Origin: Alphaproteobacteria bacterium
Lineage (GTDB): Bacteria > Pseudomonadota > Alphaproteobacteria > Rhizobiales > Amorphaceae
DNA length: 64,000 bases
Direction of reading: 5' to 3'
NCBI GenBank assembly: GCA_030431335.1
Contig: JAUIJH010000007.1
Location: 1 to 64,000, forward strand
The position numbers and the translations under genes were made by a program. Each line of letters starts with the position of its first letter. Within the stretch, counting starts at the first letter, position 1. The notes under the pieces were generated by a model. The model searched no databases and was not told where the DNA came from. It was given only the letters and a program-made list of their open reading frames with translations. Below, piece by piece: positions 19,097-43,300 of the stretch.

Positions 19097-19177
19097 GGAC
19101 GCGCTTGCGGCGCCTCGCGGTTGTCCCCTAATTTCGGCCCCAAGACGGTGCCGAGCGCCGCTGGGGAGGACATGGGG

Positions 19178-20182
19178 ATGGTGATCTGGTCGAAGGCGAG
19201 CCGCTGGACGGCCGCCATCGCGTGCGCTTTGACGGTCCTGGCGGGGCCGGCGCTCGCCAAGGAACTTACGCTGCGCATCACGGTGCAGCTGCCGCTGAAA
19301 TCGCACATCGGGCAGAACCTCGTCCTGTTCAAGGATAAGGTCGAGGCCCTGTCGGGCGGTGAGATCAGCGTGGAAATCTACGATTCGGCCCAGCTCTATC
19401 GCGACAAGGACGTGCCGGAGGCGGTCGGCTCGGGGCAGATCGAGATGGGCGTGGTGTCGCTCACCCAATATGTCGGCGAGATTCCGGCCGTCGACGTCTT
19501 CTATCTGCCGTTCCTGTTCAATACCGAGGCGAAGGTGGATGCGGCCGTGGCGCCGGGCAGCCCGGTGCGCAGCGCCATCGACGCGGCCATCGCCGAAACC
19601 GGCTCCCGGGTCCTGTGGTGGCAGGCCTACGGCACGGTGGTGTTGCTGTCGAACGGCGGGCCGGTGGCGACGCCCGCCGACATCAAGGGCAAGAAGGTGC
19701 GCGTGTTCGGCAAGACGCTGGGCAACTTCATCAAGACCGTGGGCGGCGTGCCGACGCTGATTTCCGGCTCCGAGCAGTTCCTCGCCTATCAGCGCGGCAC
19801 CGTCGATATCGGCATGACCGGCGTGTCCGGCGTCCAGAGCCGCTCGCTGTGGGACGTGATGGACACCCTCACCAAGCTCAACGTGGCCGACATCGAGTTC
19901 ATCGTCGTCATCAACGAGGCATTCTGGAACGGGCTGAGCGCCACGCAGCAGGGCTTCATCGAGGAGGCCGCGCGCGCTGCGGAGGTCGACGTGCGCGAGC
20001 GCATGGCCGAGATCGAGGCGGACGGCTACGCGGCGGCCGAGGAGCACGGGATGAGCGTCCATACGCTGTCGGCGGAGGAGGAGGCGGCCTGGAGGGCGTC
20101 GGCCCAGCCGGTCATCGACCAATGGCTCAAGGAGGCCGGCCCGCTCGGCGAGACCGTCTACAACGCCGCCCAAGGCCAATAG
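19178..20182 (+). CDS. TRAP transporter system 1, periplasmic binding protein (DctP)
   Basis: A 334-residue DctP-family binding protein. The signal peptide runs to about residue 24 (hydrophobic core, then PALA-K). Family features are the early FKDKVEALSGGEISVEIYDSAQL, then VLWWQAYGTVVLLSNG, ADIKGKKVRVFG near 165 and FLAYQRGTVDIGMTGVSG near 200, which hold the ligand-carboxylate region. The ATG at 19178 is preferred over the one at 19172 because the GGAGG site is eight bases from the former and only two from the latter. It captures an organic acid for the DctQ/DctM pair that follows within four bases. The ligand is unknown. Confidence 0.92.
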   Translation: MVIWSKASRWTAAIACALTVLAGPALAKELTLRITVQLPLKSHIGQNLVLFKDKVEALSGGEISVEIYDSAQLYRDKDVPEAVGSGQIEMGVVSLTQYVGEIPAVDVFYLPFLFNTEAKVDAAVAPGSPVRSAIDAAIAETGSRVLWWQAYGTVVLLSNGGPVATPADIKGKKVRVFGKTLGNFIKTVGGVPTLISGSEQFLAYQRGTVDIGMTGVSGVQSRSLWDVMDTLTKLNVADIEFIVVINEAFWNGLSATQQGFIEEAARAAEVDVRERMAEIEADGYAAAEEHGMSVHTLSAEEEAAWRASAQPVIDQWLKEAGPLGETVYNAAQGQ

Positions 20183-20186
20183 CGGC

Positions 20187-20693
20187 GTGCGGCCGATGCG
20201 GGCCGTCACGGCGGCGTTCGAGGCGCTCGCGGCGGTCCTGCTGTTCGCCATCGGCGCGATGCTGTCCATCGAGGTGGCGGCGCGCTACCTCCTCAACGCG
20301 CCGACGATCTGGGCCGAGGAGCTGTCGCGGCTGGCGCTGATCTGGGCGGTCTTCCTGGCGAGCGCGGGCCTTCTGGCGAAGGGCGAGCACATCCGCGTCA
20401 CGGTGCTGATCGACCGGGCGCCCCCGGCGCTGCGCCGGATCGCGGACGTGGGCGGGCTCCTGTTCGTGGCGGCGGTGGCGGCGAGCGTCGCCTATCACGG
20501 CCTGCCCATCGCGATGAACAGCTTCGATGTCGGCCGCACCACCGGCTCGATGCTGGACATTCCGTCCTGGTGGACGCAGGCGGCGGTGCCGGTGGGCTTC
20601 GCGCTGGTCGCGGTGCAGGCGGTGCTGTGCGCGCTGGCGCGGGCGTTCGGCGCGGAGGCCGGGCCGGCGTTGCCGGGCAGCGGGCCGCGATGA
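20187..20693 (+). CDS. TRAP transporter system 1, small permease (DctQ)
   Basis: A 168-residue four-helix membrane protein of the DctQ type. The first two helices lie at about 10-30 and 48-68. The WAEELSRLALIWAVFLASAG block is the usual (W-x-E-E-hydrophobic-R) DctQ signature. Start is GTG at 20187; an ATG at 20196 would shorten it by three residues and neither has a strong ribosome site, so coupling to the binding-protein gene four bases upstream is likely. It complexes with the DctM subunit in the inner membrane. Confidence 0.88.
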   Translation: MRPMRAVTAAFEALAAVLLFAIGAMLSIEVAARYLLNAPTIWAEELSRLALIWAVFLASAGLLAKGEHIRVTVLIDRAPPALRRIADVGGLLFVAAVAASVAYHGLPIAMNSFDVGRTTGSMLDIPSWWTQAAVPVGFALVAVQAVLCALARAFGAEAGPALPGSGPR

Positions 20694-20721
20694 GGACGGC
20701 TCTCCCGCCGCGGCCGCGGCC

Positions 20722-21996
20722 GTGACGACCCTCGCCATCCTGGCCGCGCTGTTCGCGCTGCTCCTGATCGGCGTGCCCGTCGCGTTCGCGCTCGGCGGGC
20801 TCGGCATGATCCTGCTGGCGCTCGCCGGCTTTTCGCCGCTGATGGCGCCGGCCGGCTTCCTGGCGGCGGTGGACAATTTCGTCCTGGTGGCGGTGCCGCT
20901 GTTCCTGCTGATGGCCAACGTCATGCTGAAGGGCGGGGCGGGGCGCGACCTGTTCGCGGCGGTGCAGGCCCTGGTCGGCCACCTGCCGGGCGGGCTCGCC
21001 GTTGCCACCATCGTGTCGTGCGGCGTGTTCGCGGCCATTTCCGGCTCCTCGGTCGCCACCGCGGCGACCATCGGCACCGTGGCCATCCCGGAGATGATTT
21101 CGCGGGGCTATGCGCGCGGGTTCACGTATGGGGTGCTCGCCGCGGGGGGCACGCTGGGGATTCTGATCCCGCCTTCGCTGGTGTTGATCATCTACGGCGT
21201 GATCACCGAGGAATCGGTGTTGTCGTTGTTTCTGGCCGGGATCGGGCCGGGGCTTCTGATGATGCTCCTGTTCATCGTCTTCTCGATCCTCCACGCCCGC
21301 ACCCAGCCGGGACTGCAGAAGGTGCCGCGCGCGAACTGGGCCGAGCGCTGGCGCACCGGCCGCCGGGCGCTGCCGACGGTCGCCCTCGCTCTTGTCGTGA
21401 TAACAGGGATTTACCGCGGCTGGACCACGCCGACCGAAGCGGCCGCGGTCGGCTTCGCTGGCGCGCTGTTCATCACCGCCGTCGTCCTGCGCACGTTGTC
21501 GTTGCGCGACTTCTGGGAGGCGGTGGTGCAGTCGATGCGCACGACCGTGGTCATCTTGCTCATCGTCGCCGGCGCCAAGGTCTTCGGCAAGGCGATCACG
21601 CTCTACCGAATTCCGCAGGACATTTCGGCCTTCATCACCGCCAATATAGACACCGCAGGTCTGTTTATCCTCGCGGTCTCCGGCGTCCTCCTCGTGATGG
21701 GCCTGTTCATGGAATCGCTGTCCTTGCTTCTCGTCATGCTGCCGGTACTCGTGGGGTCGCTGGCGGTCCTCGGGATCGCCCCGATCTGGTTCGGCATCTA
21801 CTTCGTCATCATGATCGAGTGTGCACTCGTCACGCCGCCCGTTGGTCTTAACCTTTACGTTATACAGGCGGTCGGTGGTGGTTCATTGGCCGAGATCGCA
21901 CGGGGTGTCCTGCCGTTTCTTGCGTTGATGCTCCTTACGGTGCTCGTCATCGTCCTTGTTCCGCAAGTCGTTCTTTGGATTCCGTTCCACCTGTGA
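20722..21996 (+). CDS. TRAP transporter system 1, large permease (DctM)
   Basis: A 424-residue, roughly 12-helix permease of the DctM family, using Na+ or H+ gradients. Typical segments seen: IGVPVAFALGGLGM, FAAISGSSVATAATIGTVAIPEM near 105-125, GGTLGILIPPSLVLIIYG near 145-162 and TPTEAAAVG near 235. The start is GTG, 28 bases after the DctQ stop, and gives the expected MTTLAIL-like start. Completes a standard P-Q-M operon. The stop is followed by an AT-richer gap before the next gene. Confidence 0.92.
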   Translation: MTTLAILAALFALLLIGVPVAFALGGLGMILLALAGFSPLMAPAGFLAAVDNFVLVAVPLFLLMANVMLKGGAGRDLFAAVQALVGHLPGGLAVATIVSCGVFAAISGSSVATAATIGTVAIPEMISRGYARGFTYGVLAAGGTLGILIPPSLVLIIYGVITEESVLSLFLAGIGPGLLMMLLFIVFSILHARTQPGLQKVPRANWAERWRTGRRALPTVALALVVITGIYRGWTTPTEAAAVGFAGALFITAVVLRTLSLRDFWEAVVQSMRTTVVILLIVAGAKVFGKAITLYRIPQDISAFITANIDTAGLFILAVSGVLLVMGLFMESLSLLLVMLPVLVGSLAVLGIAPIWFGIYFVIMIECALVTPPVGLNLYVIQAVGGGSLAEIARGVLPFLALMLLTVLVIVLVPQVVLWIPFHL

Positions 21997-22157: not shown

Positions 22158-23675
22158 ATGCCCGTTGCGACCGACATCTCCCGAGGGACCGAACGTCTGG
22201 TTGGCGAGCGCGATGTGCGTGACCGCACGGCGTCGGCCGTCGGGTGCCCGCTTTACGTCGATCTCAACGGCACGCTGATCGCCACCGATCTCCTGTGGGA
22301 GAGCGCGCTCGGCTCCATCAGGGACCGGCCGGGGGGATTGCTGCGGGCGCCGTCGGCGCTGCTGCGCGGCCGCCAGCACCTGAAGGCGCTGCTGGCCGAG
22401 GGGTGCGAGATCGATCCCGCCACGCTGCCCTATCGCCGCGAGGTGCTGGACGTGGTGCTCATGGCCCGGGCCGAGGGACGCTCGGTGATCCTCACCACCG
22501 GCGCGCCTATGGCGCTCGCCCGCAGCGTCGCCGACCACCTCGGCCTCTTCGATGACGTGATCGCGTCGGACGCGGAGACCAACGTTCGCGGCCCCGCCAA
22601 GCGCGATGCGATCCTGGAGGACGCCGCCCGCAGCGGCGGCGCGCGCCGGGGCGGACCCGGTTTCGCCTACCTCGGCGATGCCGCCGTCGACCGGCCCGTG
22701 TTCGAGGCGGCCGACGAGGCGCTGGTGGTGGCGCCGGGCGGCCGGGCGCCGCGGGCTCTGGCGGGGTTCGGCGGGCAGCTTTCGGTCTCCGGCGGCGGCT
22801 TCTGGCCCGCGCTGCAGGTGCTGCGGCCGCACCAGTGGTCCAAGAACGTGTTCGTCTTCATGCCCATCGGGCTTGCCCTTACGCTGCCCTCGATATCGAT
22901 GGTCCTCGCCACGGTGGTGGCCTTCTTCGCCTTCTGCTTCATCGCCTCGGCAACCTACGTCTTCAACGACCTGCTCGACCTCAAGCTCGACCGGGCGCAC
23001 CGGACGAAGCGGATGCGCCCGCTTGCGGCGGGCACGCTGACCGTGCCGCGCGCGATGGCGCTCGGGGTCGTCATGTTCGCGCTCGGCATCGGGTGCGCGC
23101 TGCTGCTGCCGCTCGCCTTCCAGGCGCTGCTGGCGCTCTACGTGGTGTCCAACCTCGCCTATTCGCTGGTGCTCAAGCGGATGCTCCTGATCGACGTGGT
23201 GACGCTGGCGGGCCTCCACACCCTGCGCGTCCTCGCCGGAGGGGCGGCGGCGGGCCTGGCGCCCTCGTTCTGGCTCATTGCCTTCACGCTGTTCCTGTTC
23301 CTGTCGCTGGCCCTGGTGAAACGCTACACCGAGCTCGAGCAGCTCGGCCGGCGGGCGGAGCGGCGGCACACCGGCCGCGGCTACCGGGCCGAGGACCTGG
23401 AGACGATCGCCAGCGCGGGGATGTGCTCGACGTTCTCGACGGTGCTGGTGCTCGCCCTCTTCATCAACTCGAACCGGACGCTGGCCGAGCTCGAGCATCC
23501 CTGGGTGCTGTGGCCGATCTGCCCGCTGGTGCTCTACGTGCTGATGCGGATCTGGATCCTGGCGAAGCGGCGCGAGATGGACGACGATCCCGTCGCCTTC
23601 GCGCTCACCGACTGGCGCAGCCAGCTCATGCTCGGCCTCGCCTGCGCGATCTATCTGGTGGCTCCCCATGTCTGA
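22158..23675 (+). CDS. HAD-UbiA fusion: polyprenyl-phosphate phosphoribosyl transferase-like
   Basis: A 505-residue two-domain protein. Residues 1-200 form a HAD-type domain with DLNGTL at 35-40, ILTTGAP near 111 and YLGDAAVDRP near 171. Residues 215-505 form a polytopic UbiA-family transferase with RPHQWSKN at 223-230 and the Mg-diphosphate motif NDLLDLKLD at 270-278. The RPxQWxKN start is characteristic of the decaprenyl-phosphate 5-phosphoribosyltransferase branch (mycobacterial Rv3806c). By analogy the UbiA half moves phosphoribose from PRPP onto polyprenyl phosphate and the HAD half removes the 5-phosphate. The second HAD aspartate is Asn37, which may weaken phosphatase activity. Start has GGAGAGG just upstream. 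The stop overlaps the next gene by eight bases. Confidence 0.85.
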   Translation: MPVATDISRGTERLVGERDVRDRTASAVGCPLYVDLNGTLIATDLLWESALGSIRDRPGGLLRAPSALLRGRQHLKALLAEGCEIDPATLPYRREVLDVVLMARAEGRSVILTTGAPMALARSVADHLGLFDDVIASDAETNVRGPAKRDAILEDAARSGGARRGGPGFAYLGDAAVDRPVFEAADEALVVAPGGRAPRALAGFGGQLSVSGGGFWPALQVLRPHQWSKNVFVFMPIGLALTLPSISMVLATVVAFFAFCFIASATYVFNDLLDLKLDRAHRTKRMRPLAAGTLTVPRAMALGVVMFALGIGCALLLPLAFQALLALYVVSNLAYSLVLKRMLLIDVVTLAGLHTLRVLAGGAAAGLAPSFWLIAFTLFLFLSLALVKRYTELEQLGRRAERRHTGRGYRAEDLETIASAGMCSTFSTVLVLALFINSNRTLAELEHPWVLWPICPLVLYVLMRIWILAKRREMDDDPVAFALTDWRSQLMLGLACAIYLVAPHV

Positions 23676-24996
23676 GCGCACCCGCTACGCCCCCTGGGGC
23701 ACGCCCGGGCTGGGGGCGGCGCGCCGCGCCGTGCCGGCCGCGCAGCTGCGCACCGGAGGCGGCCCGATGCTGCCCTTCGGCGCCGGCCGCAGCTACGGCG
23801 ACAGCTGCTCGCTCGCCGACGGCGTGCTGCTCGACGGGCGGCCCGGCGCCGCGATCCACGATTTCGACCGGTCCGCCGGCATCCTCACCGCCGACGCGGG
23901 GGTCTCGCTGGGGGCGCTGCTGGCGCGGGTGGCGCCGACTCATATCCTGCCGGTGCTGCCTGGCACGCAGTTCGCCACGCTCGGCGGCGCCATCGCCAAC
24001 GACATCCACGGCAAGAACCACCACCGGCGCGGCAGCTTCGGCGCCTTCGTCGAGGAGATCACGCTGCGCCGCTCGGATGTGGCGGGGGCGATCCGGCTGC
24101 GGCCGGGCTCGGCGCTGTTCGCGGCGACGGTGGGGGGCATGGGGATGACGGGGCGCATCGAGCGGGCGCGCCTGCGTGTCCTCAAGGTGCCGTCCACCGA
24201 TGTGCGCGAGCGGACGGTGCGCCTCACCTGCCTTGCGGACTATTTCGCCCGCGCCGAGGAGGCGGACCAAACCCACGAATATGCCGTCGCCTGGATCGAC
24301 AGCCTCGCCCGCGGCAAGGCGTTCGGGCGCGGGCACCTCATCGTCGGCGATCACACCGGGGAGGGCGACGCACGGCCCCCGCGCGGCGCGCTGGCACGGG
24401 TGCCGGCAACGCCGCCGGTGAGCCTCCTCAACACGGTGACGCTGCGCGCCTTCAACGCGGCCTATTTCCGCCGCGTGCCGGCTTCGGGACGGACGCGGAT
24501 CGTGCCGGCCGACGCCTTCTTCTTCCCGCTCGACCGCATCCTGGAGTGGAACCGCCTCTATGGGCGCCGCGGGCTGCACCAGCACCAGAGCGTCATTCCG
24601 GCCGACGCCGCGCCGCGGACGATCCCCCGCCTCCTCGCGATGGCGCAGGAACACGGCCACGCGTCCTTCCTCACGGTGCTCAAGCGGTTCGGCGCCAACC
24701 GCTCGCCGGCGCTGATGAGCTACGCCCGGCCCGGCTACACGCTGACGCTCGACTTCGCCGACAAGGGCGCCGCCACGCTGCGCCTGCTGGATGCGCTCGA
24801 CGCCGCCACCCTCGACGCCGGCGGCGCGGTCAATCCCTACAAGGACCGGCGCATGTCCGCCGCCACCTTCGCCCGCTCGTTCCCGGACTGGCAGCGGGTG
24901 GAGGCGGCGCGCGACCCCGCCATCATGTCCGATTTCTGGCGCCGCACGGCGCTCGCCCTGACTGAGGAGGCCACCGCTTTGGAGATCGCCGCGTGA
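23668..24996 (+). CDS. DprE1-like FAD-dependent polyprenyl-phosphoryl-pentose 2-oxidase
   Basis: A 442-residue oxidoreductase of the PCMH/VAO type. The FAD site shows LPFGAGRSYGDSCS at 35-48 and LPGTQFATLGGAIANDIHGKNHH at about 97-119; the IHGKNHHxxGSFG stretch is a hallmark of decaprenyl-phosphoryl-ribose 2'-epimerase subunit 1 (DprE1). Near the C terminus NPYKDRR matches the conserved catalytic-lysine region of DprE1. By my alignment the mycobacterial drug-target cysteine position is not Cys here (GYTLTLDF). Expected reaction: oxidation of C2 of a polyprenyl-phosphoryl pentose to the keto sugar. The usual partner reductase DprE2 is not encoded next door. Overlaps both neighbours, so it is translationally coupled. 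Confidence 0.85.
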   Translation: MSERTRYAPWGTPGLGAARRAVPAAQLRTGGGPMLPFGAGRSYGDSCSLADGVLLDGRPGAAIHDFDRSAGILTADAGVSLGALLARVAPTHILPVLPGTQFATLGGAIANDIHGKNHHRRGSFGAFVEEITLRRSDVAGAIRLRPGSALFAATVGGMGMTGRIERARLRVLKVPSTDVRERTVRLTCLADYFARAEEADQTHEYAVAWIDSLARGKAFGRGHLIVGDHTGEGDARPPRGALARVPATPPVSLLNTVTLRAFNAAYFRRVPASGRTRIVPADAFFFPLDRILEWNRLYGRRGLHQHQSVIPADAAPRTIPRLLAMAQEHGHASFLTVLKRFGANRSPALMSYARPGYTLTLDFADKGAATLRLLDALDAATLDAGGAVNPYKDRRMSAATFARSFPDWQRVEAARDPAIMSDFWRRTALALTEEATALEIAA

Positions 24997-25418
24997 AGAT
25001 GATCCCTTTCATCCTTTTTACCGTGCTTTCCAACGCGGCGGCACAGGTGATGCTGAAGAAAGGCGTGATGACGCTCGGCACGATCTCGCTCGCCGGCGGC
25101 AACCCCATCGTCAAGATGCTGGAGATCGTCTTCCAGCCGTTCGTGTTCATGGGGATCGTGCTGTTCGTCGTCTCCATGGCCTCGCACCTTTACGTGCTGT
25201 CCAAGGTGGACCTGCTGTTCGCCTATCCGTTCCTGTCGCTCGCCTATGTCGCTGTGGCGATTGCGGCGTGGCTCGTGTTCGGCGAGAGCCTCAGCACGCT
25301 GCGCATCTTCGGCATCGCCTTCATCTGCCTCGGCATCGTGCTGATCGCCAAGGCCGGGCCAACCGGCGACAGCGCCCGCGCCGTGACGGTGGAGACGGCC
25401 GCCAAGGTACGGCCATGA
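24993..25418 (+). CDS. Small EmrE/ArnE-like membrane carrier (SMR/DMT superfamily)
   Basis: A 141-residue protein with four predicted membrane helices (about 5-22, 48-68, 72-95 and 100-118) and a short hydrophilic tail. Features are the N-terminal LSNAAAQVMLKKG helix end, YVLSKVDLLFAYPFLSLAYV and a final helix FGIAFICLGIVLIAK, all as in EmrE and the ArnE/ArnF undecaprenyl-phosphate-aminoarabinose flippase subunits. The GTG start overlaps the DprE1-like stop as GTGA; an ATG two codons on is possible. In this setting a flippase for a lipid-linked sugar is more likely than a drug pump. That is an inference from context. Confidence 0.8.
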   Translation: MKMIPFILFTVLSNAAAQVMLKKGVMTLGTISLAGGNPIVKMLEIVFQPFVFMGIVLFVVSMASHLYVLSKVDLLFAYPFLSLAYVAVAIAAWLVFGESLSTLRIFGIAFICLGIVLIAKAGPTGDSARAVTVETAAKVRP

Positions 25419-25479
25419 GGCATCCCGCCTCGCACGCGGCGCTTTTCGCCCGCCGCCCCCGCTACAAGGAAGCCTCACC

Positions 25480-26916
25480 ATGCTGACCCGCCCGCAAACG
25501 GCCCCCTCGTTCGAGCGCGCCCAGCCCAAGCCCGACCTGCTCACCGTGGCCGACGCCAAGGCGCTGTCGCTGGCGGACATGAGCGCGCTGTTCAGCGCCC
25601 ACCTCAATCCGGGGCAGCTCCACTTCATGAAGCTGCTCGGCTTCGACAAGGTGAAGATCGAGAGCGCGGAGGGGATGCACTATATCGCCGCCGACGGGCG
25701 CCGGATCCTCGACTTCTTCGGCGGCTTCGGCAGCCTCGCCTTCGGCCACAACCATCCGCGCATCCTGGCCGCCCGCAAGGCGTTCCAGGACGAGAAGCGG
25801 CACGAGATCGCGATGGCGTTCCTGTCGCAATACGCCGCCGCGCTGGCGAAGAACCTGGCGGCGTGCTCGCCGGGCGATCTCGACATGGTGTTCCTCGGCT
25901 CCTCCGGCTCGGAGGCGATGGAGGCGGCGGTGAAGCTGGCCGAGCGCGCCTCGGGCCGCAAGAATTGCAAGATCGTCTACGCCGAAAACGCCTTCCACGG
26001 CAAAACCAAGGGCGTCCTGTCGCTGACCGACTCGCCGCTCTACCGGGGCGAATTCGCGCTGGTGCCCAACGGCGTGCGGGTGCCCTTCGGCGACCTGGCG
26101 GCCATCGAGCGGGCCGTTGCCGCCGATCCCGACATCGGCGTGGTGGTGCTGGAGACGATCCAGGGCGGCGGCGGCATCGTCGGCGCGCCGACCGAGTTCT
26201 GGCAGGGGCTGCGGGCGCTGTGTGACCGTACCGGCATCGTCTGGGTCGCCGACGAGGTGCAGTGCGGGCTCGGCCGCACCGGACGCTTCTATGCCTTCGA
26301 GCATCACGGCGTGGTGCCCGACATCACCGCGCTCGCCAAATCGCTGGGCGGAGGCAAGGCGGCGATGGGCGCGATGATCGCCCGGCGCGACCTCTATATG
26401 AAGGCGTACGGCAAGCCGAAGGATGCGTTGATCCACGGCCCGGCCACCTTCGGCGGCATCGGCGAGGGCTGCGTCACCGCCATCGAGGCGCTCAACGTCC
26501 TGTTCGACGAGGGGCTGATCGACAACGCCGCCGCCACGGGCGACTACCTGCTGGCGCAGCTTACCATGTTGCAGGAGAAATACCCCAAGCTGATCAAGGA
26601 TGTGCGCGGCCAGGGGCTGATGGTCGGGCTGGAGTTGCAGGACATGTCGCGCGCGATGCCGCTCGCGGTGCGCCCCATGGTGGCGGTGCTCGACGACAAG
26701 CTGAAGGGCTCGCTGGCCGGCTTCCTCGGCGCGGCGCTGCTGCGCGAGCACGGCGTGCTCGTCGCGTTCACCGAATACAACCGCAACGTCATCCGCCTGG
26801 AGCCGCCGCTGATCGCGACGCGCGCCGACGTCGACGCGCTCGTCGCCGCGCTCGACGCGGAGCTGTCAGGGGGCGTCATCGGCCTCGTCAAGGGTTTCAT
26901 CGCTTCGCGGCGATAA
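25480..26916 (+). CDS. Class III PLP-dependent aminotransferase
   Basis: A 478-residue fold-type I, class III aminotransferase. PLP-binding features: GSSGSEAMEAAVKLAE at 140-155, DEVQCGLGRTG at 259-269 (D259 contacts the pyridine nitrogen) and the Schiff-base lysine K287 in ALAKSLGGG. The N-terminal ~60 residues are longer than in ornithine aminotransferase and resemble the putrescine/diaminobutyrate branch. It sits between the lipid-pentose oxidase/carrier and the GT-C-like gene, separated by 61 and 13 bases. A sugar-ketone substrate would be unusual for class III, which normally acts on omega-amines, but the gene order makes it worth testing. AAGGA precedes the ATG. Confidence 0.87.
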   Translation: MLTRPQTAPSFERAQPKPDLLTVADAKALSLADMSALFSAHLNPGQLHFMKLLGFDKVKIESAEGMHYIAADGRRILDFFGGFGSLAFGHNHPRILAARKAFQDEKRHEIAMAFLSQYAAALAKNLAACSPGDLDMVFLGSSGSEAMEAAVKLAERASGRKNCKIVYAENAFHGKTKGVLSLTDSPLYRGEFALVPNGVRVPFGDLAAIERAVAADPDIGVVVLETIQGGGGIVGAPTEFWQGLRALCDRTGIVWVADEVQCGLGRTGRFYAFEHHGVVPDITALAKSLGGGKAAMGAMIARRDLYMKAYGKPKDALIHGPATFGGIGEGCVTAIEALNVLFDEGLIDNAAATGDYLLAQLTMLQEKYPKLIKDVRGQGLMVGLELQDMSRAMPLAVRPMVAVLDDKLKGSLAGFLGAALLREHGVLVAFTEYNRNVIRLEPPLIATRADVDALVAALDAELSGGVIGLVKGFIASRR

Positions 26917-26929
26917 ACGGGGCGGGCTG

Positions 26930-28480
26930 ATGAATTTCGCTTTTCGCGCGCCGGTCGATCGGATCGGCGCGCCGCAGATGGCGCGGGGCCGTCCGCCGCT
27001 CGTCGCCTTCGCGCTGCTCATGGCGCTGGCGCTGGTGCCGCTCGGCCTCGCCGACCCGCTGCCGCTGGTGGACCTTCCCGCCCACCTCGCCCGCGCCTAC
27101 ATCCACGCCAACATCGACACCTCCGCGGTGCTCGACAAGTATTACGCCGTCGACTGGCAGTTCCTGTCCAATCTCGGTGTCGACATCTTCCTGCCGCCGC
27201 TCCTCAAGGTGATGTCGCCGCACGCCGCGACGGTATTGCTCGCCGCGCTCCTGCTGGTGGCGACCGCAACGGCGGTGATCGCGATCCACCGGACCTTGTT
27301 CGGGCGGTGGTCGGCCTTTCCGCTGCTCGCTTTCCTGTTGTTGTACAACAAGCCGTTCCTGTGGGGCTTCATCAACTACGTGATGGCGATCGCCTTGGCG
27401 CTGTGGCTGTTCTTCGCCTGGCTCAAGCTGCGCCATCTGGCGTGGTGGGTGCGCGTGCCGCTGTTCGCGGCGTTGACCACGCTGCTCGCGCCGATCCACC
27501 TCTACGGCTTCGCGTTCTATGCCGTGCTGATCGGCACCAGCGAGTTCAGCCGCGTCGCGTTCGGACCGCGCGCGCAGTGGGGGCGCGGCGCGGTCACGCT
27601 GGCGCTCAACGCCTTGCCGTTCGCGCCGGGGATCGCGCTGGTATTCTCGAGCCCCACCACGGCCGCGGCCGAACCCGATTGGGGCTCGGTGCTCGGCAAG
27701 CTGCATGGGCTGCTGGAGGCGGTCCAGGCCTATGGTGAGGTCTCGGCGGCGGTGCTTCTCGTCTTCCTCGGCCTCGTCGTCGGGGCGGGGCTCCTCACCG
27801 GGCGCGTGGTCATCCACCGGACGATGGTGCTCGCCATCGCGGTGCTCGTCCTCGTCTATTTCGCGATGCCGCTCAGGATCTTCGGGTCCGGCTATGCCGA
27901 TGTGCGGCTGCTGCCGGTGATCGGCCTCGTCTTCGCCGCGACGGCGGATTGGCGGGTGCCCTCGCTGGCGTGGCGGCGCGGCTGGATCGCCCTATTCGCC
28001 GCGATCCTCGTGCTGCGCATGGCCAGCGTGATGGTGCATTTCGTGATCGCGGACCGCTATTTCGCCGAGGTGCGGCAAAGCCTTGCGCCGCTGCAGCCGG
28101 GCGACCGGCTGGCCGTCGCTGTCCTGTATCGGCCAGGGGATTTCCCGTCCTTTCCGCCGAATTTGCACCTGGCCGAGATGGCGGTGGTGGAGCACGAGGC
28201 GTTCGTGAACTCCATGTTCCACGATCCCGGCGCGCAGCCGTTGACCATCGTCTACGATGTCGACCCCGCCTTCCGCGGCTGCTGCTCGCACGAAATCGAG
28301 GTTCCGCCGGACGGTCCGGCGCCCAACCCCTTCGCCACGATCCCGCTGGCCAAGTTCGACTATCTGATCGTCTTCGGCACGGCCCTTCTGGAGGCGCCGC
28401 CGCCGGCATCGGTCGAACTCGCCTTCGAGGGCGACGGGTTCGCCCTCTACCGGGTGCGCGATCCGCTGCCGAAGCCGTGA
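26930..28480 (+). CDS. Polytopic membrane protein, GT-C glycosyltransferase-like
   Basis: A 516-residue integral membrane protein with roughly ten helices up to about residue 375, then a soluble C-terminal domain of about 140 residues. The first extracytoplasmic loop has LVDLPAHLARAYI at about 44-56; an acidic residue followed by P-x-H at this place resembles the loop-1 motif of GT-C enzymes that take sugars from polyprenyl phosphate. I cannot assign a named family. As the last gene of the cluster it is the natural candidate for transferring the flipped lipid-linked pentose to a cell-surface acceptor. Starts 13 bases after the aminotransferase stop. No symbol assigned. Confidence 0.65.
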   Translation: MNFAFRAPVDRIGAPQMARGRPPLVAFALLMALALVPLGLADPLPLVDLPAHLARAYIHANIDTSAVLDKYYAVDWQFLSNLGVDIFLPPLLKVMSPHAATVLLAALLLVATATAVIAIHRTLFGRWSAFPLLAFLLLYNKPFLWGFINYVMAIALALWLFFAWLKLRHLAWWVRVPLFAALTTLLAPIHLYGFAFYAVLIGTSEFSRVAFGPRAQWGRGAVTLALNALPFAPGIALVFSSPTTAAAEPDWGSVLGKLHGLLEAVQAYGEVSAAVLLVFLGLVVGAGLLTGRVVIHRTMVLAIAVLVLVYFAMPLRIFGSGYADVRLLPVIGLVFAATADWRVPSLAWRRGWIALFAAILVLRMASVMVHFVIADRYFAEVRQSLAPLQPGDRLAVAVLYRPGDFPSFPPNLHLAEMAVVEHEAFVNSMFHDPGAQPLTIVYDVDPAFRGCCSHEIEVPPDGPAPNPFATIPLAKFDYLIVFGTALLEAPPPASVELAFEGDGFALYRVRDPLPKP

Positions 28481-29387: not shown

Positions 29388-30383
29388 ATGAGCCGACCCA
29401 ATATCGACCGCGCGCGTCTGCGCGAGCTTCACCAACTCATGCACCGGATCCGGGCGTTCGAGCGCGAGGCGATCGCGGCGGCGCTGGACGGGCGCGTCCT
29501 GGGCGCGATTCACCCCTCCATCGGCCAGGAAGGGGTGGCGGCGGGCGTCGTCACCAACCTCAGGCGCGACGACCGGCTCCTGTCGACCCACCGCGGCCAC
29601 GGCCACACCCTCGCCAAGGGCGCCGATCCGCGGGCGATGATGTGCGAACTGTTCGGCCGCGTCGGCGGCTCGTGCGGGGGGAAGGGCGGCTCGATGCATA
29701 TCGCCGATTTCGGCGTCGGCATGCTGGGGGCCAACGGGGTGGTCTCGGCCAACATCACCATCGCCGCCGGCGCCGCCCACGCGATCAAGCTGAAGGGGGA
29801 CGACCGCATCGTGTGCTGCCTGTTCGGCGACGGGGCGATCAATCGCGGGCCGTTCCTGGAGGGGCTCAACTGGGCGAAGGTGTTCGGGTTGCCGGTGCTG
29901 TTCGTGTGCGAGGACAACGACTGGGCGGCCACCACGCGCACCTCCGACATGACGGCGGGCGAGGGCGCGGCCGCGCGTGCCGCCGCCCTCGGCCTTGCCA
30001 CCGTGACGGTCGACGGCAACGACGTCGCGGCGGTGGACGAGGCGGCGCGCCAGGCCATCGCGGCGGTGCGCGGCGGCGGCGGGCCGATGCTGATCCACGC
30101 CGTCACCTTCCGCCACACCGGCCACACCTCCGTCGATCCGGGCGCCTACCGGCCCGCCGATGAGGTGGCGCGGCGCATCGCCGAGGAGGATCCCATCAAT
30201 TTGTGCGCGCAGCTTTTGAGCCTTGCCGGGGTGTCGGAGGAGGAGCTCGCGTCCGATGTCGCGGAGGCGGCGACGGAGATGGCCCAGCACGCCGCCTTCG
30301 CCACCGAGCAGCCCTATCCCGACCCGGCCGGCGCCTATGCCGACGTGCAGGATGTCGGCTCGCCGCTGGAACGGGCGTACTGA
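29388..30383 (+). CDS. TPP-dependent dehydrogenase E1 component, alpha subunit
   Basis: A 331-residue E1-alpha subunit of the pyruvate/branched-chain 2-oxoacid/acetoin dehydrogenase group. The thiamine-diphosphate motif starts at GDGAINRG (147-154) and ends in the CEDND stretch near 174-178. Substrate-loop residues THRGHGH (67-73), GGKGGSMHI (98-105) and FRHTGHTSVD are conserved. The length and GGKGGSMH pattern fit acetoin dehydrogenase AcoA as well as PdhA. It would decarboxylate a 2-keto acid or cleave acetoin with the beta subunit encoded one base downstream. No E2 or E3 gene follows, so it must use partners encoded elsewhere or act non-canonically. Confidence 0.92.
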   Translation: MSRPNIDRARLRELHQLMHRIRAFEREAIAAALDGRVLGAIHPSIGQEGVAAGVVTNLRRDDRLLSTHRGHGHTLAKGADPRAMMCELFGRVGGSCGGKGGSMHIADFGVGMLGANGVVSANITIAAGAAHAIKLKGDDRIVCCLFGDGAINRGPFLEGLNWAKVFGLPVLFVCEDNDWAATTRTSDMTAGEGAAARAAALGLATVTVDGNDVAAVDEAARQAIAAVRGGGGPMLIHAVTFRHTGHTSVDPGAYRPADEVARRIAEEDPINLCAQLLSLAGVSEEELASDVAEAATEMAQHAAFATEQPYPDPAGAYADVQDVGSPLERAY

Positions 30384-30384
30384 A

Positions 30385-31353
30385 ATGGCGCTGATCAGCT
30401 ACATCGAAGCCGGCCGCCGCGCGGTGGCGCGCGAAATGGAGCTCGACCCCAGCGTCTGGTGCCTGGGCGAGGATCTCGGCCGGGGCGGCGTGTTCGGCCA
30501 GTACAAGGGCCTCGCCGAGCGCTTCGGGGCCGCGCGCGTGTCCGACGCGCCCATCTCGGAGGCCGCCATCATGGGCGTGGCCGTGGGCGCGGCGATGACC
30601 GGCACGCGCCCGGTGGTGGAAATGCGCTTTTCCGACTTCGCGCTGTGCGCGGTGGACGAGCTGGTCAACCAGGCGGCCAAGGCGCGCTTCATGTTCGGCG
30701 GCCAGTCGAAGGTGCCGATCACCGTGCGCGAGCCCATCGGCATGTGGCGCTCCTCGGCGGCCCAGCACTCCCAGTCGCTCGAGGCCTGGTACACGCACAT
30801 TCCGGGTCTGGTCGTGGTGTGCCCGTCGACGCCGGCGGACAATTACGCGCTGCTGCGCGCCGCCATCCGGTGCGACGATCCGGTCGTCTACATGGAGCAC
30901 AAGAACCTGTGGCCCCTGGAGGGGGAGGTGGACGAGGACGCCGCGACCATCGGGCTCGGCAAGGCCGCCGTTCGGCGCGCGGGGGGCGACATCACCATCG
31001 TCTCATGGTCCGCGTGCGCGCGTGAGGCGGAGCGGGCGGGGGAGATCCTGGCCGAGCAGGGCGTGGCGGCGGAGGTGATCGACCTGCGCACGCTGTGGCC
31101 CTGGGACCAGGAACTGGTGCTGGCCTCCGCCTCGAAAACCGGGGGCGTGCTCGTGGCCCACGAAGCGGTGGGGGTGAGCGGCTTCGGCGCCGAGGTGGCC
31201 GCCACCGTCGCCGAGCATGCCGACGTGCCGGTGGCGCGGGTCGCCGCCCCGCGCGCGCCGATCGCCTATGCCCCGACCATGGAGGCCGTGGTGAAGGTGA
31301 CGGCGGAGGCGATCGCCAAGCGGGTGCTGCGGATGATCGAGGCGCGCGGGTGA
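30385..31353 (+). CDS. TPP-dependent dehydrogenase E1 component, beta subunit
   Basis: A 322-residue E1-beta subunit. The pyrimidine-domain catalytic glutamate region reads LGEDLGRGGVFGQYKGL near 27-43, followed by DAPISEAAIMGVAVGAAMTGTRPVVEMRFSDF. The transketolase C-terminal domain begins near residue 200 with DITIVSWSA and VIDLRTLWPWD. Together with the alpha subunit it forms an alpha2-beta2 tetramer with TPP at the interface. The ATG is one base after the alpha stop, and its own stop overlaps the next gene as GTGA. Confidence 0.92.
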   Translation: MALISYIEAGRRAVAREMELDPSVWCLGEDLGRGGVFGQYKGLAERFGAARVSDAPISEAAIMGVAVGAAMTGTRPVVEMRFSDFALCAVDELVNQAAKARFMFGGQSKVPITVREPIGMWRSSAAQHSQSLEAWYTHIPGLVVVCPSTPADNYALLRAAIRCDDPVVYMEHKNLWPLEGEVDEDAATIGLGKAAVRRAGGDITIVSWSACAREAERAGEILAEQGVAAEVIDLRTLWPWDQELVLASASKTGGVLVAHEAVGVSGFGAEVAATVAEHADVPVARVAAPRAPIAYAPTMEAVVKVTAEAIAKRVLRMIEARG

Positions 31354-32054
31354 GCGCCGCCCGGGCCCCCAAGCATATCGGCATCATCGCCTGCTCGGCC
31401 GAGGGGGCCTCGCTGTGCTACCGCACCATCTGCACCGAGGCGCCGGCCATGATGGGGCGGCCCTACGCGCACCCCGAGATCACCATGCACACCCCTTCGC
31501 TCGCCCGCTACGTGGCCGCGCTGGAGGCGGGCGAATGGAGCAAGGTCGGCGCGTTGATGGCCCATTCGGCCGACATCTTGTGCGCGGCGGGCGCGGAGAT
31601 CCTCATCTGCCCCGACAACACCATCCACCAGGCGCTCGGCACGGTGGAGGCGTTCCCCGCGCCCTTCATCAGCATCGCCGATGCGGTCGCCGCCGAGGCG
31701 GAGGCGCGGGGCTTCACCCGCCTCGGGCTGATGGGAACGCGTTGGCTGGTGGAGAGCGCGGTCTATCCGGACGCGATGGAGCGGGCCGGCATTTCCATCC
31801 GCATTCCCGAGCTGCCGTCGCGCCGCGCCGTCGACCGGGCGATCATGGACGAACTGGTCGAGGGGCGGCTCGACGGGTCGGCGCGGAAGGTTTGTCTGGG
31901 CGTCATCGCCGCGCTGGCCGAGACGGGTTGCGAGGCGGTCGTCCTGGGGTGCACGGAGCTGCCGTTGATCCTAAGCGACGTGGAGGCGGGGCTGCCGACA
32001 CTCAATTCGACCCAACTCCTCGCCCGCGCCGCCTTGCGCGCCGCGATCGGCTAG
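31350..32054 (+). CDS. Aspartate/glutamate racemase-family protein
   Basis: A 234-residue member of the Asp/Glu/hydantoin racemase superfamily. The two catalytic cysteines are visible, the first in ICPDNTIH near 91-98 and the second in VLGCTELPL near 200-208. The spacing of these and the CxNTxH form match aspartate racemase. It could racemise an amino acid or act as a maleate-isomerase or decarboxylase relative. The GTG start overlaps the E1-beta stop as GTGA. A racemase within a 2-keto-acid operon would fit conversion of a D-amino acid before deamination, but the substrate is not known. Confidence 0.85.
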   Translation: MSAARAPKHIGIIACSAEGASLCYRTICTEAPAMMGRPYAHPEITMHTPSLARYVAALEAGEWSKVGALMAHSADILCAAGAEILICPDNTIHQALGTVEAFPAPFISIADAVAAEAEARGFTRLGLMGTRWLVESAVYPDAMERAGISIRIPELPSRRAVDRAIMDELVEGRLDGSARKVCLGVIAALAETGCEAVVLGCTELPLILSDVEAGLPTLNSTQLLARAALRAAIG

Positions 32055-32177
32055 CGAAATCGTCGGCCGAAGAAGGGGCGGGGGAGTGGCGCCCGGTGCA
32101 AGACGTGACAGGGTAGGGGCGCAGCAACGCCTGGCGGCGGCGATATCGTCGTGCCGGCGGCGAGGGGGCGAGGGCGC

Positions 32178-32978
32178 ATGAGCGGACAGCTGGCGGGCAA
32201 GATCGCGATGGTGTACGGCGCCGGCTCCGTCGGGCCGGGCTGGGGCAACGGCAAGGCCGCCGCGGTGCTGTTCGCGCGCGAGGGCGCGCAGGTTCTGTGC
32301 ATCGACCGCGACGGCGCGGCGGCGCAGGAGACCGTGCGCCTGATCGAGGCCGAAGGCGGCACGGCCCACCCCTTCATCGCCGACGTGACCGAGGAGGGTG
32401 CGGCGCATGCGGCGACGCATGCGTGCGCGGAACACTTGGGCAACCCGCAAATTGTTCATTATAACGTCGGCGTGAGCCAGCCCGGCGGCATCGAGGATGC
32501 CGACCTGGCGCAATGGCGTGCAGTGTTTGCCGTGAATGTCGAGGGTGCCATGTTGGCGGCCTCCGCGGCGTTGCCGATCATGAAGTCGGCGAAGAAGGGA
32601 GCGTTCGTGTTCATTTCCTCGGTGGCTGCGGTCGCCTCAGGCGGCTACCAATACGCTTCCTACGAAGCCTCCAAAGCGGCGCTCAACCGGCTGTCGCAGA
32701 CGATCGCCGTGGCCCATGCCGCCGACGGCATCCGGTCCAACGTGATCATGCCGGGTCTCATCGATACGCCGCACGTCACCCACCACATCGCGGGGCGGGC
32801 GACGGCGGCCGCGGATCTGGCCGCAAGGCGCGCCGCGGCGCCGCCGATGCGCCGGCAGGGGACCGCGTTCGAGGTGGCGCAGGCGGCCGTCTTCCTCGCC
32901 TCCGACGCGGCGAGCTACATCACCGGCGCCGTGATCCCGGTCGATGGCGGCCTCTCGTTGACGGTCCCCTCGGCATGA
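32178..32978 (+). CDS. Short-chain dehydrogenase/reductase (SDR)
   Basis: A 266-residue classical-type SDR. The nucleotide loop reads GAGSVGPGWGNG near 15-26, which departs from the standard TGxxxGIG. The usual NNAG is NVGV near 92. Catalytic residues are S in FISSVAA, Y and K in YASYEASK near 150-157. The C-terminal GAVIPVDGGLS is standard. NAD is likely because an acidic residue (CIDRD) ends the second strand. A 123-base gap separates it from the racemase gene, and an ATGA overlap couples it to the next SDR. Start chosen at 32178. Confidence 0.88.
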   Translation: MSGQLAGKIAMVYGAGSVGPGWGNGKAAAVLFAREGAQVLCIDRDGAAAQETVRLIEAEGGTAHPFIADVTEEGAAHAATHACAEHLGNPQIVHYNVGVSQPGGIEDADLAQWRAVFAVNVEGAMLAASAALPIMKSAKKGAFVFISSVAAVASGGYQYASYEASKAALNRLSQTIAVAHAADGIRSNVIMPGLIDTPHVTHHIAGRATAAADLAARRAAAPPMRRQGTAFEVAQAAVFLASDAASYITGAVIPVDGGLSLTVPSA

Positions 32979-33808
32979 TGGGCAACAACACGCCGGTGGC
33001 GAAGCCGGGACCCTTGCCGCCGACGGCGCTGATCACCGGCGGGGCGGGCGCGATGGGGCTGGAAATCGCGCGCGTCATCGGGCCGGGCAAGCGGGTCGCG
33101 CTCGTCGACATCGACCCCGCGGTGCACGAAGCGGCCGCGAGCCTGCCGGACGCGATCGCCTTTTCGGGCGACCTGTCCGACGCGGAGGTGGTGCGCGAGG
33201 TCTACCGCGGCGCGTTCGATGCGCTGGGGCCCATCGGCATCGTGGTGCATTGCGCCGGCATCGCGCCGGTGGCGCCGTTCCTGGAAACGGACCGCGCGAT
33301 GTTCCAGGAGACGCTGGCGGTCAACCTGCTCGCCGGGTTCGAGATCTTCCGCCTCGCCGCCCTCGACCTCGTGACCTACGGTCGTGCCGGGCGTTTCGTG
33401 GCGATCTCGTCCATCTCCGGCGCGCGGGCGGGCTATGCGCGCACCGCCTACGGCACCGCCAAGGCGGCGCAGATCCATCTCGCCGGCCAGATGGCGCTGG
33501 AACTCGGCCCCTACGGCATCACCGCCAACACGGTCGCGCCGGGGCCGATCGACACCGCCCTCTCGCGCGAGCGCCACACCGCGGAGGCGCGCGCCGACTA
33601 CCAGCGCACCATCCCGATGGCGCGCTACGGCGAGGCCTCGGAGGTGGCGCGTGCGGTCGCCTTCCTGACGGCAGAGGAGAGCAGCTACATTTCCGGCCAC
33701 ACCCTGTTCGTGGACGGGGGCTACATGGCGGCCGGGATGGGCGTTTCGACGGCGCAGAGCGCGGCTGCCATCCGCCGCGTCCAGGTGGTGACGAAGGAAG
33801 AGCTTTGA
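32975..33808 (+). CDS. Short-chain dehydrogenase/reductase (SDR)
   Basis: A 277-residue classical SDR. TGGAGAMG near 21-28 is the cofactor loop, VDIDP marks probable NAD use and CAGIAP replaces NNAG. The catalytic motif reads SSISG and YGTAK, with APGPIDTA following and ISGHTLFVDGGYMA at the end. This resembles 3-oxoacyl-ACP reductase-like (FabG-type) catabolic dehydrogenases. The ATG overlaps the previous SDR's stop as ATGA. Two SDRs in a row suggest successive alcohol oxidations or a pair specific for two stereoisomers. A TTGA overlap links it to the TPP enzyme. Confidence 0.88.
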   Translation: MMGNNTPVAKPGPLPPTALITGGAGAMGLEIARVIGPGKRVALVDIDPAVHEAAASLPDAIAFSGDLSDAEVVREVYRGAFDALGPIGIVVHCAGIAPVAPFLETDRAMFQETLAVNLLAGFEIFRLAALDLVTYGRAGRFVAISSISGARAGYARTAYGTAKAAQIHLAGQMALELGPYGITANTVAPGPIDTALSRERHTAEARADYQRTIPMARYGEASEVARAVAFLTAEESSYISGHTLFVDGGYMAAGMGVSTAQSAAAIRRVQVVTKEEL

Positions 33809-35532
33809 CCAACGAGATGACCGGCGGCGAGGCGATCGCCCGCATGATCCTTGCCGCGGGCGGCGGGCCGATGTTCGGCATGGGCGGCTTCCAGCTCCTG
33901 CCCTTCTACGACGCGGCGCGCCGGCTGGGGCTCGACCACCACCTCATCAACGACGAGCGCTGCGCCGTGTTCCTGGCCGATGCCTACGCCAAGGTGTCGG
34001 GCCGGGTGGGGCTTGCGGACGCCACCTTGGGGCCGGGGGCGACCAACCTCGTCACCGGACTGGTGGAGGCGCTCAATTCCGGCTCGCCCCTGGTGGTGAT
34101 CGTGGGCGCCGCCAACCGCGACCACGCCGGCAAGAACATGACGCAGGAGACCGACCAGGCCGCGATCCTTGCCCCCGCCACCAAGGCCTATCTCAAGGTC
34201 GAGACGGTGGCGCGCATTCCCGAGATGATGCGCCGCGCCTACGAGATCGCCACCACCGGCCGGCCCGGCCCGGTGGTGGTGGACGTGCCGGAGGACGTGG
34301 CGCACGGCACCTTCGGCTTCGAGGACGGGGCGTTCGGGCTCGACCCGGCCTTCGCGCAGGCCCCGGCGTTGCGGTGCCGGCCGGAGGCGGATTCGCTAGC
34401 CGAAGCGGCGTTGCTGCTGGAGAACGCCGCGCGGCCGATCATCCTCGCCGGCGGCGGGGTGCACATCTCCGGCGCGGCGGACGTTCTCACCCACGTGGCG
34501 CAGGAAAACGGCATCCCCGTCGCGCACACCTTGACCGGCAAGGGCGCGATCCCCTGCACCGACGCGATGTCCGTCGGCCTGTTCGGCCGCTACGACCGGA
34601 TCGCCAACGGGCTGATCGCCGAGTCCGACGCGATTTTGGTGATCGGCTGCAAGCTCGGCGAGATCGCCACCAAGCGCTACACGGTGCCCGCGGCCGACCG
34701 CACGCTGATCCACCTCGACATCGTGGCCGAGGAAATGGGCCGCACCTTCCAGCCCAGCCTGCGGCTGTGGGGGGACGCGCGCGCCGGCCTGCTCGACCTC
34801 CACGCCGCGATGGCCCCCAACGCGGCCAACGCCAAGGCGGCGCGGGCCGACTATCACGCCGAGATCGCGGCGCGGAAGGCGGCCTGGCAGGTCGAGGCGG
34901 CGCCCCGCTATGCCTCCGACGAGGTGCCCATCGCGATGGGCCGCTTGATCGGCGAACTGCGCGCCGCGCTGCCGGACGACGGCATCTTCGTCGCCGATGG
35001 CGGCTTTGCCGCGCACTGGGGCGGGCTTTTGTTCGACACGCGCCTGCCGGGCCGCACCTTCGTGCCCGACCGCGGCTTCGCCTCAATCGGCTACGGCTTG
35101 CCGGGGGCGATGGGCGCCAAGCTCGCCGCGCCGGACCGCATGGTGGCGGCGCTCACCGGCGACGGCGGCTTCAACATGACGCTGGGCGAACTGGAAACTG
35201 CCATCCGCATGAAGCTCGCCGTCACCATCATCGTGGTGAACAACGCCGCCTCCGGCTACGTGAAGGCGCTGCAGCACCTGATGTACGGCGCGGGCAACTA
35301 CCAGTCCTCCGACCTCGCCGACACCAACTATGCCGCCGTCGCCGAGGCGATGGGCGCCAAGGGCATCCGCGTGGAGGATCCGGCCGACCTTTCGGCCGCC
35401 TTCGCCGCGGCCTTCGCCCACCCCACCGGCCCGACCGTGCTCGACGTGGTGGTCACCCGCGACGCCGCCAAGATGCTCCCCGCCGCCGACAGCCGCGCCG
35501 TCACGGTCAAGAAGGGCGACCGCGTAGCCTAG
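33805..35532 (+). CDS. Acetolactate-synthase-like TPP-dependent enzyme
   Basis: A 575-residue enzyme with the three-domain layout of the pyruvate oxidase/acetolactate synthase family. The cofactor-activating glutamate is E51 in INDERCAVFLADAYAK. The central domain starts near 200. The TPP/Mg site reads TGDGGFNMTLGELETAIRM through NNAA near 451-477. No separate regulatory subunit follows, and it lacks the leader typical of IlvB, so a catabolic carboligase or decarboxylase is likelier than valine synthesis. The TTG start overlaps the SDR stop as TTGA, with AAGGAAG just upstream; an ATG four codons on is the alternative. Last gene of the operon. Confidence 0.85.
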   Translation: MTNEMTGGEAIARMILAAGGGPMFGMGGFQLLPFYDAARRLGLDHHLINDERCAVFLADAYAKVSGRVGLADATLGPGATNLVTGLVEALNSGSPLVVIVGAANRDHAGKNMTQETDQAAILAPATKAYLKVETVARIPEMMRRAYEIATTGRPGPVVVDVPEDVAHGTFGFEDGAFGLDPAFAQAPALRCRPEADSLAEAALLLENAARPIILAGGGVHISGAADVLTHVAQENGIPVAHTLTGKGAIPCTDAMSVGLFGRYDRIANGLIAESDAILVIGCKLGEIATKRYTVPAADRTLIHLDIVAEEMGRTFQPSLRLWGDARAGLLDLHAAMAPNAANAKAARADYHAEIAARKAAWQVEAAPRYASDEVPIAMGRLIGELRAALPDDGIFVADGGFAAHWGGLLFDTRLPGRTFVPDRGFASIGYGLPGAMGAKLAAPDRMVAALTGDGGFNMTLGELETAIRMKLAVTIIVVNNAASGYVKALQHLMYGAGNYQSSDLADTNYAAVAEAMGAKGIRVEDPADLSAAFAAAFAHPTGPTVLDVVVTRDAAKMLPAADSRAVTVKKGDRVA

Positions 35533-43268: not shown

Positions 43269-43300
43269 GGTGTTTCCTCCCGGTTCGATCCGGCGTCGTG

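Follow-up and report, generated by a model that had tools for sequence, protein, structure and literature searches.

The mycobacterial decaprenyl-phosphoryl-arabinose (DPA) pathway (Rv3806c, Rv3807c, DprE1, DprE2, Emb/Aft) and the Arn pathway for 4-amino-4-deoxy-L-arabinose (Ara4N) are, together with three-component pentofuranose systems and one step of gentamicin biosynthesis, the described systems with which the locus reported here can be compared. In the Arn pathway, the ketone is formed on a UDP-sugar and the aminotransferase is ArnB, a DegT-type enzyme. To our knowledge, neither the mycobacterial arabinose pathway nor the three-component systems use an aminotransferase at the step considered below. 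The three-component systems of Citrobacter youngae O1 and O2 comprise a HAD-UbiA fusion, a small carrier, and a membrane transferase, with a GalE-like short-chain dehydrogenase/reductase (SDR) as an auxiliary epimerase; in O2 it is this protein, ORF13, that determines whether the side chains contain ribofuranose or xylofuranose (available part of PMC11127046). In gentamicin biosynthesis, the dehydrogenase GenQ is followed by GenB1, a class III pyridoxal phosphate (PLP) aminotransferase, acting on oxidized aminoglycosides, ketone included (available part of PMC4039129). We analyzed a stretch of 64,000 nucleotides (the window; contig JAUIJH010000007.1 of assembly GCA_030431335.1, positions 1 to 64,000) from an alphaproteobacterial genome of 5.6 Mb in 285 contigs (91.7% complete), in which five co-directional plus-strand open reading frames (ORFs) at 22158-28480, with intergenic gaps of -8, -4, +61, and +13 bp, form a cluster that we regard as a new variant of lipid-linked pentofuranose systems. 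No published description of this gene combination was found in the open-licence literature. Gene calls were made from ORFs plus a codon score, without an annotation pipeline, and gave the following features:

22158-23675, + strand: HAD-UbiA fusion, predicted polyprenyl-phosphate phosphoribosyltransferase with a 5'-phosphatase domain (NF006088, PF12710, PF01040); start ATG 22158, alternative longer start TTG 22104
23668-24996, + strand: DprE1-type FAD oxidase, predicted lipid-linked ribose 2-oxidase (NF053785, solved DprE1 matches, active-site positions)
24993-25418, + strand: small EamA/SMR carrier, ArnF/ArnE-like, predicted flippase for a lipid-linked sugar (EamA and ArnF matches)
25480-26916, + strand: class III PLP aminotransferase (AMT), DprE1-linked subfamily (PF00202)
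26930-28480, + strand: putative polytopic membrane protein at the glycosyltransferase position (8 predicted helices)

Like the mycobacterial pathway, the locus combines a UbiA-type transferase whose phosphoribosyl pyrophosphate (PRPP) residues are kept, a DprE1 with a kept active site, and, putatively, a membrane transferase using a lipid-linked pentose; unlike that pathway, it shows no detectable DprE2 and an AMT instead, a fused HAD domain instead of Rv3807c, and an ArnF-like carrier. The three-component systems share the HAD-UbiA fusion, putatively the small carrier and the membrane transferase, and, in relatives of the window, the GalE-like SDR, but the present locus adds DprE1 and an aminotransferase, a word that occurs 0 times in the available main text of PMC11127046. 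Arn is alike in the logic of the predicted route (keto sugar, amination, ArnE/F-type flipping, and GT-C transfer, a membrane protein family of relatives, fam5, lying near the ArnT fold at Z 16.8), whereas here the ketone would be carried on the lipid and derived from PRPP, the aminotransferase is a class III enzyme and not ArnB, and the sugar would be a pentofuranose aminated probably at C2. The five cluster proteins, to which this search was confined, had no match to ArnA, ArnB, or ArnC among the families listed (for the AMT, the best 25 of 69). The GenQ/GenB1 pair offers the likeness of oxidation followed by class III amination of a sugar (PMC4039129, in part), but it modifies C6' of a soluble antibiotic.

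We propose, with a probability of roughly 0.6, that the operon product is a polyprenyl-phosphate-linked amino-pentofuranose, the AMT aminating the ketone made by DprE1. The AMT most likely takes the place of DprE2, because it clusters with DprE1 in loci without DprE2, because DprE2 is present in nearly all AMT-less genomes with DprE1 in a sample of the order, and because the pairing recurs in a second DprE1 lineage. Among 199 genomes of the order (DprE1-like proteins counted above 200 bits; AMT at a profile E of 1e-110 or better), a DprE1-like protein was present in 30 and the AMT in 9, all 9 being among those 30 and all located in the DprE1 cluster (hypergeometric p 1.3e-8), and the AMTs of the 8 other genomes were 65-79% identical to that of the window. 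With up to ~8 kb on either side of DprE1 read in the 29 non-window genomes, DprE2 was absent beside DprE1 in all 9 AMT loci, whereas among the 21 AMT-less genomes there were 19 in which DprE1 was followed by a DprE2-like classical SDR. DprE2 was present in 20 of these 21, in the 20th (G043) elsewhere in the genome at 341 bits; in G183 the profile reached 89 bits, and neither DprE2 nor AMT was detected genome-wide. The mutual exclusion of AMT and DprE2 among DprE1 genomes was marked (Fisher 7e-7), with the reservation that these p-values carry no relatedness correction and overstate independence because the counts come from related genomes. Only top candidates per genome were scored (up to 7 for DprE1 and AMT and 10 for the extended SDR described below in the order sample, 5 for DprE1 and AMT and 9 for DprE2 in a class sample of 289 genomes, and 56 for DprE2 in named genomes), and the DprE2 alignment (A1) comprised 15 of the 19 DprE2 loci, L054, L063, and L071 being omitted for overlong ORFs and L070 as a near copy of L069.

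The first-pass annotation had noted that DprE2 is not adjacent to the window's DprE1, and the genome-wide search extended this: the best classical SDR of the 91.7% complete window genome (G000) reached 89.5 bits, compared with 278-376 bits for seven control genomes, and all 9 AMT genomes remained at 70-95 bits, so that DprE2 was not detected in any of them. These scores, together with the class-sample and named-genome searches described below, led us to reject a DprE2 hidden elsewhere in AMT genomes, with G487 as an exception. The window's own classical SDRs (32151-33808, and one at 42420-44687) were likewise discarded as DprE2 candidates; they cluster loosely with DprE2, but G000 contains no match of DprE2 strength. 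In the class sample, DprE1 occurred in 36 of 289 genomes and DprE2 in 29 (28 with DprE1, the other being G264), and the AMT was found in two, the window genome and G401, neither of which has DprE2.

A scan of GTDB genomes returned 435 AMT relatives, the best 80 of which were surveyed as named loci, a choice biased to close kin, with gene presence scored by tblastn. Judged by their titles, these 80 genomes are Hyphomicrobiales, and they include Mesorhizobium, Aurantimonas, Phyllobacterium, Rhizobium, Roseibium, Hoeflea, Shinella, and Brucella endophytica; the cluster is common to many soil and marine kin of rhizobia. UbiA was present in 80/80 loci, DprE1 in 78/80, the carrier in 80/80, and an extended SDR in 79/80, and by tblastn both DprE2 and the window's polytopic family were found in 0/80. 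Of the five genes whose co-occurrence the first-pass annotation had proposed to survey, UbiA, DprE1, carrier, and AMT recur together, and the polytopic gene does not. With few deviations, the genes of the named loci are arranged as UbiA-DprE1-carrier-SDR-AMT. Genome-wide, DprE2 was detected in one of 49 genomes checked out of the 80; a dprE2 homologue elsewhere in all cluster genomes, combined with unconserved linkage of the AMT, the case that the first-pass annotation had named as contradicting it, was sought and not found.

The DprE1 tree (82 of 139 DprE1 rows, some representing the same gene twice) revealed that AMT linkage requires at least two changes on well-supported branches and falls into two deeply separate lineages; the AMT is tightly linked to DprE1 across families and also in the second lineage. 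The DprE1 of G401 belongs to the second deep clade, where most of the surrounding genomes have DprE2, and its cluster (L243) reads carrier-SDR-UbiA-DprE1-AMT, with a UbiA of 301 aa, too short for a fused HAD. Gene order also differs in L065, L068, L072, and L073. We read this cluster as a second, independent joining of AMT and DprE1, while the tree alone does not separate gains from losses. Within the AMT clade, G043 has no AMT and carries DprE2 elsewhere in its genome, as if the two genes had been exchanged at one step. That the AMT acts at the DprE2 step is argued chiefly from three features: its linkage to DprE1 persists where gene order has changed, apparently came about on two occasions, and is exchanged against DprE2. 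Beside the G401 cluster, at 36-2823 of L243, ORFs resembling a polyprenyl-diphosphate synthase and a 1-deoxyxylulose-5-phosphate synthase were recognized by eye.

For the early steps, the first-pass proposal that the HAD-UbiA fusion and the DprE1-like protein perform the first DPA-type reactions gained support. The motifs RPHQWSKN, NDLLDLKLD, and IHGKNHH were confirmed in the translations, and the fusion matched PF12710 (30.8 bits), PF01040 (87.7 bits), and NF006088 (543 bits, cut-off 351). The best solved alignment of the UbiA domain was Rv3806c (8j8j), from which R22, K28, Y70, N73, D77, Y138, and K143 are retained in the window protein (positions counted by hand), with Y157 replaced by His and K208 beyond the aligned part; according to the available part of PMC10994848, the seven retained residues bind PRPP, Mg, or pyrophosphate in Rv3806c. 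The kept residues point to a predicted PRPP-dependent polyprenyl-phosphate phosphoribosyltransferase. The HAD motif DLDGT was present in 73 of 80 UbiA rows of named relatives, 6 not being matched by the pattern. The DprE1-like protein reached 298 bits with NF053785, below a cut-off of 500 that likewise was unreached in 199/199 order and 289/289 class genomes, and of the 10 solved sequences that it matched, 9 were DprE1 (best E 2e-55) and one was a marginal unrelated chain. Its residues Y43, H114, K116, Q307, K339, and K392, which we take to be the active-site positions Y60, H132, K134, Q334, K367, and K418 of Mycobacterium tuberculosis (Mtb) DprE1, were unchanged in 87/87 AMT-clade rows.

As a separate observation, 86 of these 87 rows depart from the other DprE1 proteins at two positions close to the active site and carry Tyr for Ala directly before the lysine equivalent to Mtb K418 and Thr for Ala at the position equivalent to Mtb C387. 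Among 19 DprE2-linked rows from the order, that Tyr occurred 0 times and that Thr once, and among 29 class-sample rows, most but not all from DprE2 genomes, both occurred 0 times; the DprE1 proteins of L068 and G401 have Ala at both positions, and that of L074, which belongs to the AMT clade and lacks the AMT, has both Tyr and Thr. This pair of residues is perhaps a sign of an altered substrate. In L079 (G183, from the genus of the window), a lone DprE1-like gene shows H132 changed to Y, K134 to R, and K367 to G (Mtb numbering) and is probably decaying or re-purposed.

The assignment of the AMT to the class III PLP enzymes, made by the first-pass annotation, was borne out by a whole-domain PF00202 match (276.6 bits, cut-off 30.5), and K287, invariant in 9 aligned rows, is by this alignment presumably the PLP lysine. 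The first-pass annotation had cautioned that omega-amines are the usual substrates of class III enzymes; the aminoglycoside precedent in the available part of PMC4039129 lessens the force of this caveat. The carrier scored 28.3 bits with EamA (cut-off 28.2), and its best NCBIfam match was ArnF (51.6 bits, below the cut-off of 99), in keeping with its earlier description as ArnE/EmrE-like. Scans of AMT-locus carriers gave the same picture, EamA being just above the cut-off in five (window, L065, L073, L076, L243) and ArnF being the best match, below the cut-off, in four (window, L073, L189, L243). In the order sample, 7 of 8 AMT loci had a match to the carrier profile, as did 78/78 named loci with DprE1; L068 had no match, with an LPG-synthase-type membrane protein nearby instead. 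No ArnF-like carrier was found by this profile in the 19 DprE2 loci, 7 of which, and no AMT locus, have a GtrA carrier (six of those seven GtrA proteins having built the GtrA profile).

The five-gene description had missed an extended SDR, which is absent from the window but present in almost every relative. At E 1e-70 or better, it occurred in 8/199 order genomes, always inside this cluster, and in most named loci it lies between carrier and AMT; it was not detected genome-wide in the window genome or in G161 (L068), nor, within the locus, in L207. Among solved structures, GalE-type epimerases match it best, and by analogy with the description of ORF13 it is plausibly a C3 epimerase. We place the amine at C2 because DprE1 and AMT persist without the extended SDR.

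From these data, we propose the following route. By homology to characterized enzymes, UbiA would use PRPP to load polyprenyl phosphate with phosphoribose, whose 5'-phosphate would be removed by the fused HAD or, in the genus of the window, by a different enzyme; DprE1, as its homology and kept active-site residues suggest, would then oxidize C2 to the ketone. The AMT, in the position of DprE2, probably aminates this lipid-linked 2-keto pentose to the 2-amino-2-deoxy pentose, a reaction suggested by replacement and linkage. In most relatives, the window being excluded, the extended SDR may alter another carbon, plausibly C3 as for Citrobacter ORF13, and the ArnF-like carrier would flip the lipid before a membrane transferase moves the basic sugar onto some surface acceptor.

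Several observations weigh against this proposal. The best NCBIfam and Protein Data Bank (PDB) matches of the AMT are PigE (343.8 bits, below the cut-off), chain 4ppm, and putrescine aminotransferase. Six class-sample genomes (G268, G270, G339, G386, G424, and G480) have a DprE1-like protein, but searches for DprE2 and for the AMT found neither. The DprE1 scores of five of these genomes are weaker (174-227 bits), whereas G268 (DprE1 401 bits) has a partial DprE2-like match at a contig end. G487 holds both AMT and DprE2, with a separate UbiA-DprE1-DprE2 locus and an AMT operon without DprE1. Two of the 80 named AMT operons lack their own DprE1, and both genomes carry DprE1 elsewhere; one of them, L137, belongs to a genome outside the 49 checked for DprE2. 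G043 retains the ArnF-like carrier without the AMT. The HAD motif I of the window (22260-22274) reads DLNGT instead of DLDGT, and that of the nearest relative, Acuticoccus yangtzensis, from the same genus, reads DGHGA. A different phosphatase may serve in this genus, or its pathway may be weakened. Finally, the extended SDR, which is conserved almost as widely as DprE1, could be the ketone-making partner.

Of the other explanations, one that we consider unlikely is that a plain pentofuranose is made, the SDR or another reductase replacing DprE2, while the AMT acts on the glycan or lipid that receives the sugar or provides some other amine. Generic SDRs are plentiful in AMT genomes, and an extended SDR, ORF13, epimerizes a pentofuranose in a related system (PMC11127046, in part); yet the three SDR-less loci (G000, G161, L207) keep the AMT, no DprE2 was detected in their genomes, and thus no dedicated reductase is seen there. 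In addition, the second DprE1 lineage also has the AMT beside DprE1, and an amino-sugar flippase is the nearest match of the carrier. Less likely still is an amine on another carbon, with the extended SDR oxidizing C3, the AMT acting there, and DprE1 serving C2 epimerization or a side branch. The SDR is found beside the AMT in 79/80 named loci, and L131 and L137 keep SDR and AMT after the local DprE1 has gone, but G000 and L068 (G161) have DprE1 and AMT with no such SDR detected in the genome, L207 has none in the locus, and G043 keeps the SDR without the AMT and with DprE2 present. An ordinary putrescine or omega-amine enzyme that neighbors DprE1 by chance is highly improbable despite the class III family and its PigE, 4ppm, and putrescine aminotransferase matches, since linkage in the order sample, in the named loci, and in the DprE1 tree is conserved, rearranged, and re-acquired, with DprE2 nearly excluded. 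Overall, the interpretation of the first-pass annotation, an Arn-like route to an amino-pentose, is partly supported.

Amination by the AMT of the ketone left by DprE1, our preferred explanation, leads to a wider proposal, for which we put the chances at just under even: 2-amino-2-deoxy-pentofuranosyl polyprenyl phosphate would be a widespread class of lipid-linked donor that decorates the envelopes of many Hyphomicrobiales, a convergent counterpart of Ara4N in which the AMT replaced DprE2 apparently in two DprE1 lineages and a C3 change by the SDR in most relatives yields xylo- or lyxo-aminofuranoses. A sugar donor and a surface modification, for which we found no description in the open-licence literature, would then be expected in genera such as Mesorhizobium, Phyllobacterium, Aurantimonas, and Roseibium. 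If correct, reductase and aminotransferase would be interchangeable at the branch point that follows DprE1, and class III aminotransferases would gain a lipid-linked sugar as substrate, both claims being directly testable from the gene set.

The polytopic gene is not conserved at its position, relatives carrying other families. The window protein has 8 predicted helices, with D48, H52, and R55 invariant in 15 family members (alignment A4, 15 of 17 rows; L009, with an internal stop, and L015 omitted), and neither Pfam nor NCBIfam yielded a matching family at E values up to 1. Its single-sequence model was too poor for use (predicted local distance difference test, pLDDT, 49.6). The family occurred in 16/199 order genomes, 8 of them among the 30 DprE1 genomes (p 6e-4, no relatedness correction). 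In G487 (L247, 780-5617), two proteins of this family with 28-32% identity to the window protein lie within 7 kb of UbiA-DprE1-DprE2, a hint that the family may transfer lipid-linked pentoses.

Two other families lie downstream of the AMT in named relatives, usually adjacent to it: fam5 (7 helices) in 43 of 80 loci, with 39 of these genes co-directional, and fam12 (8 helices, convergent) in 24, one locus having both (alignment A5, 24 of 43 rows for fam5; A6, 21 of 24 for fam12). Comparison of the fam5 model (pLDDT 87) with known structures by VIA-align gave ALG12 (Z 17.7), ArnT (16.8), EmbB (14.5), and AftB (14.4), and the matches listed are GT-C enzymes apart from a few glycosylphosphatidylinositol (GPI)-transamidase entries. 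A GT-C fold predicted for the fam5 of relatives is supported by these VIA-align rows, whereas in Foldseek alone no fam5 hit reached E 0.001, the best being ALG9 at 1.7e-3. Profile comparison among the window's polytopic family, fam5, and fam12 showed no similarity, no convincing PDB match emerged when profiles of the window's family and of fam12 were searched, and fam5 was not found in the window genome in a search made without a positive control.

Directly upstream of the cluster, genes of a TRAP transporter lie on the same strand at 19121-21996, DctM being recognized by Pfam and two smaller subunits by eye. Downstream, an apparent catabolic cluster occupies 29388-35532, with an E1 dehydrogenase alpha subunit recognized by Pfam and, by eye, E1 beta, a racemase-like protein, two classical SDRs, and an acetolactate-synthase-like enzyme.

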